Positions 4,138-9,783 of a stretch of DNA of 64,000 bases are shown here, one piece after another. The stretch spans positions 1 through 64,000 of the forward strand of contig JADZEJ010000002.1 of the NCBI GenBank assembly GCA_020850575.1. Reading direction: 5' to 3'. The stretch's first letter is position 1. Each line of letters starts with the position of its first letter. The translations under genes and the position numbers were made by a program. The notes below the pieces were generated by a model. That model did not search any database. It had not been told where the DNA came from and saw only the letters and a list, made by a program, of their open reading frames with translations. Source of the DNA: Candidatus Uhrbacteria bacterium (lineage in GTDB: Bacteria; Patescibacteriota; Patescibacteriia; 2-12-FULL-60-25).

Positions 4138-5022
4138 TCAATTTTTTGTGTTTATTGTTCCAAAACGACCGTTTCGATAGTCGGTAATGGCTTCTAGGAT
4201 TTCTTTTTCGGTATTCATGACGAATGGACCATAGCGTGCTATCGGTTCGTTAAGTGGTTCGCCTGCTAGTACAATCATATTCAGTTTTTTTGTTGCGTTT
4301 GGTGCGGTTGCGATTTTTACATTTTCACCGTTTTTGGCAAAAATAACGATATCGCCTTCGGAAGCTTCTTCCATCTTTTCACCAAATTGACCCGATCCAT
4401 CAAGTATATAAGCAAAGACATTTGCCGTAGGAGAAAAATTTTGAAGAAAGACTCCTCCTGGCTGAATGTGCAAATGAAGATATGTGATTGGGATTCTAGT
4501 TTCAATTTGAGCCGATACACCAAAAATATTTCCGGCAATGACGGTCGCTTGTATTAATCCATCGGGTGAGGTGACCTTTGGAATCTTGTTGACAGAAATA
4601 TCTTGATATCGAGGCTTCATGCGCTTATCTTGTCGTGGGAGGTTGATCCATAATTGAATGCCATGCATTTTTCCACCGACAGCTTGGAATTCTTCGTCCG
4701 GCATTTCGGAGTGAATAATGCCATCGCCCGCCGTCATCCATTGAACATCCCCGGGTCCGATTATCCCTTTATTTCCGTGTGAGTCGGTGTGCTGCATGCG
4801 GCCAGAGAGCATGTATGTGACGGTTTCAAACCCACGATGCGGATGATCTGGTGCGCCTTGAGCCTCGCCGGGTCCATGTTCGGTTGGTCCCATTTCGTCT
4901 AAAAGCAAAAAAGGATCTATTTCAGGAATAGCATCCGTTGGGAAAGGTCGACGCACCTGGAAGCCTGAGCCTTCAAAGGTTTTTTTAGCAGCAAAAATAC
5001 GCTGAATGGTTCGGATAGACAT
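4138..5022 (-). CDS. pirin family cupin protein
   Basis: This 294-residue protein is a bicupin of the pirin family. The N-terminal cupin carries the metal-site segments APDHPHRGFETVTYM and MQHTDSHGNKG, then GDVQWMTAGDGIIHSEMP with the further His and Glu ligands. The second cupin (about residues 170-290) is more divergent, as is usual. Some pirins bind iron and act as quercetin dioxygenases or redox sensors; the activity here is unknown. I use the ATG at 5022 rather than the upstream TTG, which lies in the operator. A promoter TTGACA-18-TATATT ends 18 nt before it. The gene is divergent from a marR gene that probably represses both. Confidence 0.92.
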   Translation of the reverse strand: MSIRTIQRIFAAKKTFEGSGFQVRRPFPTDAIPEIDPFLLLDEMGPTEHGPGEAQGAPDHPHRGFETVTYMLSGRMQHTDSHGNKGIIGPGDVQWMTAGDGIIHSEMPDEEFQAVGGKMHGIQLWINLPRQDKRMKPRYQDISVNKIPKVTSPDGLIQATVIAGNIFGVSAQIETRIPITYLHLHIQPGGVFLQNFSPTANVFAYILDGSGQFGEKMEEASEGDIVIFAKNGENVKIATAPNATKKLNMIVLAGEPLNEPIARYGPFVMNTEKEILEAITDYRNGRFGTINTKN

Positions 5023-5040: not shown

Positions 5041-5077
5041 AATATACTTGACAAGTAGTTGATATGTCAAGTAGTAT
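5041..5077. promoter_or_regulatory. overlapping divergent promoters with MarR-type operator
   Basis: An inverted repeat ACTTGACA (5046-5053) and TGTCAAGT (5065-5072) is centred at 5059. Each arm contains a perfect TTGACA -35 box. Plus strand: TTGACA 5048-5053, 18-nt spacer, TAGTAT 5072-5077, then 10 nt to the marR ATG. Minus strand: TTGACA 5070-5065, 18-nt spacer, TATATT 5046-5041, then 18 nt to the pirin ATG. The two promoters are exact mirror images, and ACTTGACAAGT is itself a typical MarR half-palindrome pair. A protein bound here would block both promoters. Confidence 0.8.
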
Positions 5078-5087
5078 CATTTACTAT

Positions 5088-5510
5088 ATGAACTCTACTT
5101 CCATTCAACCTAGCTTGACTTTTGTTTTAGCGCTCTCACGCTTACACGTTATTATGTCACGTAAAGGTTTTTTAAGTTTAGGTTATTCCGATTTTGTTAT
5201 CCTGCATTATTTAGCTCATGCACCTGAGGAAAAAATGCGCCGTATTGATTTAGCAGACCGTGTTGGTCTGACGGCATCCGGTATTACACGTATGCTTCTC
5301 CCGATGGAGAAGATTGGTTTAGTGGAACGTGAAACACACCCAACCGATGCCAGAGTAAGTTTTGTTGTTTTAGCGAAAGGCGGAAAGCGTTTATATGCAG
5401 AATCACTTGAATCAGTTGAACTGATGGCTGAGAATATTACCGAAGGTATTTCCGTGAAAGAATTACGACTCTTGGAAGCTGTTTTGCGGAATGCGGGCGA
5501 TCGTTTATAA
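5088..5510 (+). CDS. MarR family transcriptional regulator
   Basis: The 140-residue protein has the MarR winged-helix layout: an N-terminal dimer helix, then the DNA-binding helix RIDLADRVGLTASGITRMLL (about residues 57-76). The wing follows (VERETHPTDARVSFVVLAKGGKRL), ending in a C-terminal helix. The wing sequence THPTDARVSFV is diagnostic. I use the ATG at 5088; the upstream ATG at 5064 falls inside the promoter and would be transcribed only if initiation were much farther upstream. The operator between this gene and pirin contains matched arms, so autorepression and control of pirin are likely. No cysteine occurs in the region where OhrR-type oxidant sensors carry one, so a ligand-sensing type is more likely. 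Confidence 0.92.
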   Translation: MNSTSIQPSLTFVLALSRLHVIMSRKGFLSLGYSDFVILHYLAHAPEEKMRRIDLADRVGLTASGITRMLLPMEKIGLVERETHPTDARVSFVVLAKGGKRLYAESLESVELMAENITEGISVKELRLLEAVLRNAGDRL

Positions 5511-5543
5511 GCGTATTTCCATCTAAAGAGGGTTGTGATATCG

Positions 5544-5549
5544 TATAAT
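5544..5549 (+). promoter_or_regulatory. consensus -10 box, leaderless start
   Basis: A perfect TATAAT is followed by exactly six bases (TTACCT) and then the ATG at 5556. Initiation at the normal distance would place +1 on the A of the start codon. No Shine-Dalgarno sequence fits between them. Confidence 0.6.
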
Positions 5550-5555
5550 TTACCT

Positions 5556-6305
5556 ATGTTGCTTATACGATATATTGTTTATGTGTGTTTTGTTCTTTGT
5601 TTTTTTACGTTTATTCGATTACCTGTTCAAGCTGGAGAGGTTCCCGCATCAAAGTGTGTTACCGCCCGTACGATTAATTCGCATGCTGCAGTTACAGCGC
5701 GTTTTGAAAAAGATATCGCTCCCTATTTGAAGAACGAAAAAGCAGCCGGTGTGATAAAGGCATATCGTGATGCAGTTGATGTATCTTGGGATGCCATGAA
5801 GCAGCCATACTGTGGTTTTGGAGTATACGGCATTGCCTCTGCAGTGAAGTCATATACAAAAAGTACGGATAGAGCACGTTTGGCTTTTATAGAAGGTATT
5901 AAGCTTATCTCGAAAGCAGTATCAACTAAGACAGCATTTATTGCGACTCTTGCCGTTCCTGCCGCCGATTCCGGAAAGATTGAAGAACGGGTCAGTGCAC
6001 CAGCTGTAACGCCAGTAATTGTTAAAACAGCTATTTCCGCTAAGGATACACCGAAAAAAACGATACATATTCCACGTGGCTTAGTCCGTGGCATGCGAGG
6101 TGATCACGTGTCCGCATTACAAGCTTTTTTGGCTTCATATTTTCATATTGAAGACGCATCTTCGATTCAAACCGGTTATTTTGGATCGAAAACTAAAGCT
6201 TATTTGATCAGATATCAAATGGAGAAGGGGATTATTACGAATGAACATTCGCCGGGTGCAGGACAAGTCGGCCCAAGGACTGAAGAGAAAATAAATTCTA
6301 ATTAA
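5556..6305 (+). CDS. secreted protein with C-terminal peptidoglycan-binding domain
   Basis: The 249-residue protein starts with a hydrophobic signal peptide ending near LPVQAGE, so it is exported. A helical middle region follows, then a linker. From about residue 175 a PG_binding_1-like domain follows, with GMRGDHVSALQAFL, TGYFGSKTKAYLIRYQ and GQVGPRTEEKIN as the three repeated helices. Such domains anchor proteins to peptidoglycan, and no catalytic domain is visible. Its role may be cell-wall attachment. The ATG at 5556 is supported by TATAAT 6 nt upstream; a GTG farther upstream overlaps that box. The stop codon lies in the first arm of a terminator shared with the convergent RND operon. 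Confidence 0.8.
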   Translation: MLLIRYIVYVCFVLCFFTFIRLPVQAGEVPASKCVTARTINSHAAVTARFEKDIAPYLKNEKAAGVIKAYRDAVDVSWDAMKQPYCGFGVYGIASAVKSYTKSTDRARLAFIEGIKLISKAVSTKTAFIATLAVPAADSGKIEERVSAPAVTPVIVKTAISAKDTPKKTIHIPRGLVRGMRGDHVSALQAFLASYFHIEDASSIQTGYFGSKTKAYLIRYQMEKGIITNEHSPGAGQVGPRTEEKINSN

Positions 6306-6343
6306 CTAAAAACCCTCAATATATTATGAGGGTTTTTAGTTAA
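6302..6343. terminator. bidirectional terminator containing both stop codons
   Basis: Arms 6302-6318 and 6327-6343 form a perfect 17-bp stem rich in A-T at its base with a CCCTCA/TGAGGG core and an 8-nt loop. T-runs occur on both strands. The plus-strand stop codon (6303-6305) and the minus-strand RND stop codon (6340-6342) both lie inside the stem. Confidence 0.9.
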
Positions 6344-9300
6344 TTAATTCCTTTTTCTTGTTCCAATATTTTATGAGTGATCATTTGTTTGCTTTTATTT
6401 TGGTTTAGAATGGCGTACAGAGTCGGTACTACGAAGAGAGTAAAGAAGGAAGACATCATTAAACCAAAAATCATAGCTCCACCGAGTGCTCGCCACGTGT
6501 CATTTGATAATGTGATCGGGAGAATGCCTAAAATCGTACAAATTGAAGTGATAAAGATTGCTTCTAAACGTGAGCGACCTGCATCGATAATGGCTTCGAT
6601 GAAAGGAATGCCGAATTTTATATTCAAGTTTATTTTATCAACCAGAATGATGGCATTTTTTACTACAATTCCAAATAAGGCAACGATTCCGATTAATCCA
6701 GGGAATGAGAGATAGATACCAGTTATTGCAAGTCCTGAGAACACACCGATTAAGGCTAGTGGGATCGTAGCAAGTACTAAGATAGATTGACGGAATGAAT
6801 TGAATTGAACGATCATGGTTGAAATGATCAGTAAACTGGCGATTATCATCGCACGGAGAATAGACAAGACAGATTCATTATTTTGTTCATTTTGACCGCC
6901 AAAACTGATCGTGTAGTTATTTGGTAAGGTATATTTTTCTTTCAGTTCTTTTTGGAAGGATGCAACGACATCAGCTGGACGATGTTTTGCATCAACATCT
7001 GAAGTTAATTGGATTGTACGTTTGCGATTGATACGGGTAATGGTATCAACGCTTGGTTCAAGAGTAATTTTAGCGACATCTTTTAAAAATACAGGCTGAT
7101 GACGTGCATTCAGTACTTGTAAATTTTGAATGGCGTCCAGATTTGGAATACGATCTTTTTCAAAACGAGCTTGAACTTTAATTTCTTTTCCGTCACGAAT
7201 AACCGTCGTTATTTCTGAGCTTGAGATCGCTGTGCGCAAAACCGAACCAACAGAAGCGGCATTTAATTGATAGAGTTCAAGACGTTTTGGATCAAGGGTG
7301 AAGGTGTATGCAGCCGGGGAGCTTTTGAGTGAAATTGAAGAATTATACACGCCAGGGATCGCATCTAATATGGGTTTAAGATCTTTCGCAATTTTATCTA
7401 GTTGTTGCAAGTCTTCACCGGTAATTTGCGCGTCAAAGTCGGCGCCTGCTGGTGGTCCGCCAGCAGGAGAATTAACAGTTATTTTTGCTGTGGCAATATC
7501 AGCTAATTGCTGACGCATGTCGGAAGAAATCTCGTACGATTTTTTTGGACGCTCTTTTTCTGGTACTAAATGCACAGTAATTGATGCGAGATGGCTCGCT
7601 GATGATCCTCCTCCATTTCCATTTGCGCTTGATACGCCCACCAATGTTGAATAACTCACCACATATGGCATTTTCATGACACGTTCTTCAACAGTGCGAG
7701 TAATTTTATCGGTTTCAGTTAAACTGAGACCAGTTGGTCCTTCGATATTCACGTAGAGTAATTCTGAATCTGCGGCAGGGAAGAATTCCGTTTTGACGAT
7801 GCCTGTTATTGGCAGTGAGACGGCGCCTATAAAGAAGAGAGAGACGATGCTAAGCGTAATGAATTTATTTTTCCGTGTTGATAAAATCCACGACATGATG
7901 CGGCCGTAAATCGGTAACAACATGTCGAATTTAATTACGCCATGCATGATACGTGAGATTACATTTGAATCATGATGGCTCTGTTGCAGGAGTTTTTTCT
8001 TGATGAGATCGTCATCGATCCATTCTCTTTCGGTTAATTCAGCCGCCGCGGTTAAAGAGGTCTTACCACCACGGACATACCAGATTACTATTGAGATAAG
8101 TATTATTACAGCTAAGGCTGCGATTACCATTCCGATAAGTGTTTTACTCGCAACTCCGAAACCAGTGATTACAACAAGAATGAGACATTGAATTGCAAAT
8201 AATCCCTTGGTTAAACGGATTCGTTCTAAGATAGCTGCCAATGGATGATTAATGAAGAGTGCAATGAATAAGGAGGAGATTAATGTCACCGAAACGGTTA
8301 TTGGAATGGATTTAATATATTCACCGATGATGCCTGAAGCGGATAAGAGAGGAACAAATGCCCATACTGTTGTTAATGTTGTCGTTAAGAGCACGACTTT
8401 AAAGTCATTTAAAACCAACAGCACCGCTTCTTCAGGAGTAAATTTTCCTGAATTGAGGTATTGTTTGGTTGCACTTACGACTACGATAGCATCGTCTACC
8501 AAAAGACCGAGTGACAAGATAAGTGAGAAGAGAGATAAAAAGTTTAAACTTGTGCCCGTCATAAGCATGACGCCGAAGGTGGCGAAGAATACGAGCGGAA
8601 TTGCTAATCCTGCCACTAATGCTTCCTTCAATCCAACAATCAAAAAGAGAACCGTAAACACTAATACTACGGTGAGTAAAAAGTCATGTGTTAATTGATC
8701 AAAGTCTTTTTCAATCCGATCTGCTTGATTCGAAATAACATTATAAGTTGTACCGGCTGGAAGTTTTGAAATCGATTCTTGTAAACGTTTATTGATTTCT
8801 TCAACACTTTCGATGATATTGCCTCCAGTTTTTTTAATCACTTCAATCGTAATACTGTTTTGCGATGGTTGACCCGCTACGCCGAAACGGGATAATACCG
8901 TTTTTTCAATGGCTGTTTCACGTACGGTTGCGATGTCTCCGAGGGTAACAATGGCGCCTTTGTCACTATGAAATACTGGAATTTCTGCTAAGCTTTTCGC
9001 ATCGTAAAAACGAGCATCGGTACGAACCGGAAAATTATATTGTTTTCCTTCAAATGTTCCGCTTGGAATGGCTGTATTGGTGGCACGAATGATGGCATTC
9101 ACTTGATCAAGACTCAAACCATAATAGGTTAATTTACCTGGATCGTATGACACATCGAATTCACGTTCGTCGCCACCTGAAATACGTACGGTACGTACGC
9201 CGGGAATTTTTTCTAATTCATCTTTGATATCGTCAGCATTTTTGCGAAGTGTGAATCCGTCCATCGGACCTGTGAATGAGGCCGTCCAAATAGGCGTATC

Positions 9301-9783
9301 ATCTATGGAAACTTCTTGTACAACCGGTTCTTTCGCATCTGTTGGCAAATTCTTTTTTAGATTGTTCACCGCATCACGCAGTTTACGAAATGAATCGTCT
9401 AGATCCGCTTTCGCATCAAATTCAACGGTCACCGCGGAAAGAGAATTTGATGATTTTGAGGTTACCTTGTTTACATTTTTTAATCCGAAGATACCGGTTT
9501 CTACTTTTTTCGTAACCAGTTCTTCAATATCCGTTGGTGATGCTCCCGGATACGAGGTTATGATGACAGCAATCGGTATTTTGACTTCAGGATTTGATTC
9601 ACGAGGTAATTTCGCAAAAGAATAACTCCCAATCATGGTTAACATGATGATGAGCAAAACTACGACACGAAAATTGGTGACAAAAAAGTTGAGAATACTT
9701 TTACGTAGTTCAGGTTTGAAGCTGAGACGTTCCAGATATAAACGATCCGAAGAACCGTTTTGTTTTGATTGATGTTCTTCCAT
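6340..9783 (-). CDS. RND family efflux pump (AcrB/HAE1-like)
   Basis: This 1147-residue inner-membrane transporter has the duplicated RND layout: TM1, a large external loop, TM2-6, then the same again. The proton-relay aspartates are present in SLGLLVDDAIVV, and the partner lysine in FGIVVKNAIILVDK, so it should be an active proton antiporter. Oddly, about 100 extra residues occur between the two halves (from about residue 530), including two additional hydrophobic segments and a charged stretch before the TM7-equivalent WILSTRKNKF. It follows the membrane fusion protein by 1 nt and belongs to the marR-MFP-RND operon. No outer-membrane channel gene is nearby, which fits a cell without a standard outer membrane. 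Substrate unknown. Confidence 0.92.
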   Translation of the reverse strand: MEEHQSKQNGSSDRLYLERLSFKPELRKSILNFFVTNFRVVVLLIIMLTMIGSYSFAKLPRESNPEVKIPIAVIITSYPGASPTDIEELVTKKVETGIFGLKNVNKVTSKSSNSLSAVTVEFDAKADLDDSFRKLRDAVNNLKKNLPTDAKEPVVQEVSIDDTPIWTASFTGPMDGFTLRKNADDIKDELEKIPGVRTVRISGGDEREFDVSYDPGKLTYYGLSLDQVNAIIRATNTAIPSGTFEGKQYNFPVRTDARFYDAKSLAEIPVFHSDKGAIVTLGDIATVRETAIEKTVLSRFGVAGQPSQNSITIEVIKKTGGNIIESVEEINKRLQESISKLPAGTTYNVISNQADRIEKDFDQLTHDFLLTVVLVFTVLFLIVGLKEALVAGLAIPLVFFATFGVMLMTGTSLNFLSLFSLILSLGLLVDDAIVVVSATKQYLNSGKFTPEEAVLLVLNDFKVVLLTTTLTTVWAFVPLLSASGIIGEYIKSIPITVSVTLISSLFIALFINHPLAAILERIRLTKGLFAIQCLILVVITGFGVASKTLIGMVIAALAVIILISIVIWYVRGGKTSLTAAAELTEREWIDDDLIKKKLLQQSHHDSNVISRIMHGVIKFDMLLPIYGRIMSWILSTRKNKFITLSIVSLFFIGAVSLPITGIVKTEFFPAADSELLYVNIEGPTGLSLTETDKITRTVEERVMKMPYVVSYSTLVGVSSANGNGGGSSASHLASITVHLVPEKERPKKSYEISSDMRQQLADIATAKITVNSPAGGPPAGADFDAQITGEDLQQLDKIAKDLKPILDAIPGVYNSSISLKSSPAAYTFTLDPKRLELYQLNAASVGSVLRTAISSSEITTVIRDGKEIKVQARFEKDRIPNLDAIQNLQVLNARHQPVFLKDVAKITLEPSVDTITRINRKRTIQLTSDVDAKHRPADVVASFQKELKEKYTLPNNYTISFGGQNEQNNESVLSILRAMIIASLLIISTMIVQFNSFRQSILVLATIPLALIGVFSGLAITGIYLSFPGLIGIVALFGIVVKNAIILVDKINLNIKFGIPFIEAIIDAGRSRLEAIFITSICTILGILPITLSNDTWRALGGAMIFGLMMSSFFTLFVVPTLYAILNQNKSKQMITHKILEQEKGIN

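Follow-up and report, generated by a model that had tools for sequence, protein, structure and literature searches.

Regulators of the MarR family often control their own gene together with a divergent gene, typically in response to a phenolic or other small ligand, and in Escherichia coli the bioA/bioBFCD locus has face-to-face overlapping promoters served by one BirA operator. A divergon with a MarR regulator is furthermore known from Streptomyces formicae, namely ForZ/forAA, where the partner is an exporter gene and where, in the available passages of the source, autoactivation by ForZ is proposed (PMC12421854). The locus considered here lies in a window of 64 kb (bases 1-64000 of its contig, in a 1.04-Mb genome rated 100% complete), and judging from its sequence the region 5041-5077 is quite likely an autoregulated MarR divergon as well, with a predicted operator at 5055-5074 that would serve both a marR and a pirin gene (Table 1).

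The gene calls of an earlier note on this DNA, marR and pirin, are borne out by Pfam MarR and pirin domains. The pirin contains both the N- and the C-terminal cupin domain (PF02678, PF05726), the MarR winged-helix domain exceeds the curated cut-offs (PF12802 with 38.5 bits against a cut-off of 27, PF01047 with 36.5 against 24.6), and the 148-aa frame from 5064 matches MarR_2 at 1.3e-9 and MarR at 4.4e-9. For pirin the ATG at 5022 is favoured over the TTG at 5070, since alignments with its best homologues begin at residues 1-4. For marR the start is probably the ATG at 5088 rather than the ATG at 5064, which falls within the predicted operator, and the gap from operator to ATG, 13 nt in the window, is mostly about 11-22 nt in marR relatives. 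The MarR scores far below the cut-offs of all the named NCBIfam subfamilies HpaR, SlyA, OhrR and FabT (e.g. HpaR 39.5 vs 121.2), and the reactive cysteine of thiol-redox (OhrR-like) MarR proteins is absent, there being no Cys in the 148-aa translation; a thiol switch is therefore unlikely and a small ligand the better guess. Downstream of marR, a frame at 5535-6305 is hydrophobic at its N-terminus and has a peptidoglycan-binding match below threshold (PF01471, 21.7 bits), and an RND-type efflux pump gene at 6340-9783 (ACR_tran 1.9e-178) converges on the marR side.

Table 1. Positions of genes, promoter elements and repeats at the marR-pirin locus, numbered from the first base of the window.
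Feature	Positions	Strand	Remarks
pirin gene, 294 aa	4138..5022	-	start ATG 5022; Pfam Pirin 7e-37, Pirin_C 9.8e-28
marR gene, 140 aa	5088..5510	+	probable start ATG 5088; Pfam MarR_2, MarR
pirin -10 TATATT	5041-5046	-	18-nt spacer; promoter 11/12
Extra perfect half-site ATACTTGA	5044..5051	+	overlaps marR -35 and pirin -10; left arm of the repeat in the earlier note
Inverted repeat of the earlier note, 9+9 bp	5045-5073	.	arms TACTTGACA 5045-5053 / TGTCAAGTA 5065-5073, 11 nt between
marR -35 TTGACA	5048-5053	+	sequence match; layout as in L003, L004, L018, L021
Predicted MarR operator GTAGTTGATATGTCAAGTAG	5055..5074	.	13/16, centre 5064.5; consensus of 31 marR relatives
pirin -35 TTGACA	5065-5070	-	inside predicted operator; placement as in L153, L154, L158
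marR -10 TAGTAT	5072-5077	+	18-nt spacer; promoter 10/12

Facing promoters at 5041-5077

In the sequence of the region, AATATACTTGACAAGTAGTTGATATGTCAAGTAGTAT, the earlier note had read a TTGACA, an 18-nt spacer and a -10 box on both strands as well as a symmetry centre at 5059, and both readings hold, the two promoters occupying exact mirror positions about that centre and having 23 bp in common. The -35 boxes do likewise form the arms of an inverted repeat as had been proposed, each arm being in fact one base pair longer than was written; beyond them there is little symmetry, with 22 of the 37 positions equal to the reverse complement. When both strands were scored out of 12 and an overlap of at least 20 bp was demanded, a single coincident promoter pair of at least 10/12 on both strands was present in the 64 kb of the window, and none in the windows simulated from a first-order Markov model (n=60). 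Lowering the cut-off to 9/12 gave 5 coincident pairs in the window against a simulated mean of 2.2, which is ordinary, and inverted repeats of the 9+9 size are not rare either, the window having 12 where five simulations gave 2-6.

A predicted operator for both genes

The operator was sought among relatives of the MarR, which occur, its own genome aside, in 12 of 143 related genomes and, within the class sample, in 31 of 379 others. The two sets overlap, and the second comprises genomes of 0.6-1.7 Mb; such kin, and the small size of the window's own genome, point to a Patescibacteria/CPR lineage. The consensus ATACTTGA-N4-TCAAGTAT was read off the upstream regions of the first 12 relatives, and in scans from -120 to +45 around the start of the tblastn match it is reached with at least 13/16 by 28 of the 31 relatives (the others being L010 and L034 with 12 each and L018 with 10), whereas pooled dinucleotide shuffles reach 13 in 0.19%. 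Among the loci fetched after the motif had been read off, 17 of 19 attain 13/16. The TTG of the left half, the T at column 13 and the A at column 19 are invariant in all 31. The window site, which has its TTGA-N4-TCAA core at 5059-5070, is with its 13/16 among the weaker ones. A genome-wide search for a regulon, using the pattern with at most three mismatches, returned 4 sites while the reversed control gave 7, and a score of 13/16 is therefore not in itself significant outside this position; with a shorter pattern there were 20 matches forward and 16 reverse, against 12 and 6 in the controls, mostly with one mismatch.

The predicted operator spans the pirin -35 together with the marR spacer and the edge of the marR -10. 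A palindromic candidate operator is thus located in the promoter of the MarR's own gene, and the locus is a divergon in the sense that the promoters of its divergent genes share the site predicted for the regulator. In 22 of the 31 relatives the marR -10 (mostly TATACT) is found at the start of the operator, in five (L003, L004, L018, L021 and weakly L028) the operator occupies the spacer, and in four the -35 of the best promoter is inside it. The arrangement of promoter plus operator is conserved in front of related marR genes. The window is another case of the operator in the spacer, and its register is that of L003 (TTGACA-18-TATTAT), which also carries the MarR nearest to that of the window in the MarR tree (81/84). 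Upstream of marR, L031 and L032 each have a tandem pair of operator-like sites (28 bp apart, counted by hand), of which the one lies on the marR -35 and the other on the marR -10, and L012, L030 and L034 resemble these with a weaker first site.

What sequence and comparison show is that the promoters match, that an operator is conserved and where it lies, and that the marR-pirin pairing recurs with this operator class; the circuit they suggest is a simple one. A MarR dimer would bind at 5055-5074, between the marR -35 and -10 and over the pirin -35, whereby one dimer would exclude RNA polymerase from both promoters, and an inducer would free MarR from the operator and allow both pirin and marR to be expressed. 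Because the promoters share their 23 bp, the facing promoters would be occupied one at a time, and it is from this geometry of promoters and operator that we infer mutual exclusion of RNA polymerase in addition to autorepression. As estimated from the -10 positions, the leaders would measure about 4 nt for marR and about 12 nt for pirin. At the extra half-site a further subunit or dimer may bind more weakly, or the half-site may be no more than the overlap of a -35 with a -10. The compact autoregulated divergon of the earlier note is in other words retained as regards overlapping divergent promoters and a shared operator, but the operator would be centred at 5064.5 and not at 5059.

The pirin partner and alternative readings

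It could be argued that MarR controls itself alone, that the overlap with the pirin promoter is due to chance and that pirin is not regulated by MarR, since the operator is kept in relatives that have varying neighbours and no adjacent pirin, and since TTGACA resembles an operator half-site so that overlaps easily arise. Pirin was indeed not found beside marR in any of the 31 loci of close relatives searched (12 and a further 19), and the pirin side can therefore not be checked by way of close orthologues; of 143 other genomes just one has a pirin relative, in the phylum sample the count is 3 of 378 others, and a neighbour common to the marR relatives was not found among 20 neighbouring frames. 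Self-control alone is nonetheless unlikely, since the pirin -35 lies inside the operator, so that binding should block the pirin promoter, and since the marR-pirin pairing with the same class of operator recurs in another phylum.

Among 84 other pirin loci, a profile of MarR relatives detected a MarR frame in three (L071, L084 and L085), a number that may miss more distant MarR neighbours of pirins, the profile having been built from the relatives of the window MarR, and some of the pirin contigs end near pirin. L084 and L085 belong to Actinomycetota and have marR and pirin divergent, while L071, from Melainabacteria, has them in the same direction. L085 carries ACTTGAAGAGTCAAGT (12/12) and L084 carries ACTTGACCCATCAACA (10/12), and none of 30 other tested pirin upstream regions with no divergent MarR exceeded 9/12. 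The order of L085 was searched in 198 genomes, and 4 of the 33 marR loci examined there have an adjacent divergent pirin, namely L153 (= L085), L154 (= L084), L158 and L160; in three further loci the pirin match is weaker and non-adjacent. Each of the four intergenic regions contains two or three TTGA-N4-TCAA sites: two that are 40 bp apart in L153, and three with spacings of 27 and 20-21 bp in L154, L158 and L160, counting near-matches by eye in L154 and L160. The pirin-ward -35 is inside the first site in L153 (TTGACG) and in L154 and L158 (TTGACA), with a 17-nt spacer and a score of 9/12 each and with poor pirin-ward -10 boxes in the latter two; in L160 there was no pirin-ward promoter above the cut-off and no clear -35 (TTGTCG). 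Over the operators of the relatives without pirin, an antisense promoter reaches 11/12 in none of 31 and 10/12 in two. In the pirin tree, the pirin of the window groups with L086 and the four Actinomycetota pirins that are linked to a MarR, the support being modest (84/87), although its highest identity, 57-58%, is to a Myxococcales pirin. In L071 (1822-2421), where pirin follows marR, CTTGA-N2-TCAAG repeats of a different spacing precede marR.

The earlier note had taken both arms of the inverted repeat as binding sites of one regulator dimer pair, and the operator might accordingly be the wide palindrome centred at 5059, bound by such a pair or by a single dimer that reaches across the two -35 arms. 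The arms are perfect (9+9 bp) and both contain an ACTTGA half-site, and by hand count the outer half-sites lie 11 bp, i.e. about one helical turn, farther apart than those of the conserved operator. The right arm is the right half of the predicted operator; the left arm amounts to the marR -35 preceded by ATAC and is in most relatives not conserved beyond the -35 hexamer. ATAC does precede TTGAC in the best promoters of 5 of the 31 relatives (L005, L023, L031, L032 and L033), and in L031-L033 it belongs, together with the -35, to a full operator site; having -35 boxes in operator halves is therefore a habit of the family and not a peculiarity of the window. Since N4 is the spacing conserved across the 31 relatives, and since the left arm, besides being poorly conserved, lacks a good partner half at that spacing (3/8, hand count), the wide palindrome is improbable as the operator and a dimer pair placed on it is not the preferred interpretation. 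The N4 spacing kept by the relatives is also why the ACTTGACA/TGTCAAGT repeat around 5059 was discarded as the principal operator. That both promoters are covered by the operator stands, but one dimer at 5055-5074 would suffice to block them. A circuit in the manner of ForZ, with MarR repressing the divergent gene and activating its own, can point to the ForZ operator overlapping the -35 region of the regulator gene in the available passages (PMC12421854), but it is very improbable here, since the window operator lies in the marR spacer and touches the marR -10 and since the operator overlaps the -10 in 22 of 31 relatives, both of which favour repression.

Comparison with described systems

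On the preferred reading, a shared operator centred at 5064.5, ATACTTGA-N4-TCAAGTAT becomes a concrete predicted operator for a group of MarR proteins that occurs across a class of bacteria with small genomes, and a MarR is linked in two phyla to pirin, a protein found widely whose role is unclear. Our literature searches found no paper on a marR-pirin pair or divergon, nor any on MarR promoters, leaderless transcripts or transcription starts in Patescibacteria; on facing or overlapping promoters, PMC12421854 was the one useful paper that they yielded. The Actinomycetota pairs are like the window in having divergent marR and pirin genes, TTGA-N4-TCAA sites and, in three of four, the pirin -35 in the first site, but they have two or three sites, not one, and a MarR of a distant clade, a separation in the tree that is due in part to the different queries with which the two groups were collected. 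It is a tentative idea, and one we hold as possible rather than probable, that in distinct lineages (the small-genome one of the window, the Actinomycetota order and perhaps the co-directional Melainabacteria case) MarRs reading TTGA-N4-TCAA took on pirin as their divergent partner, the operator doubling as the pirin -35 each time and the mutually exclusive facing promoters making up a portable switch responsive to small molecules.

The bioA/bioBFCD locus is like the window in that two facing overlapping promoters are blocked by a single operator, as predicted here, but its regulator is BirA, not a MarR, and is encoded elsewhere. ForZ/forAA shares with the window a MarR regulator and a single imperfect palindrome between divergent genes, and in the available passages it also has, as is predicted for the window, no other genomic site and a leaderless regulator transcript (PMC12421854). 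It differs in its exporter partner, in the sequence of its operator and in the proposed autoactivation, and the mirror-coincident promoters are a feature of the window that is absent from the description of ForZ/forAA in those same passages (PMC12421854). The type of circuit is thus already familiar, and what is added here is the corrected operator and the recurring pirin partner.
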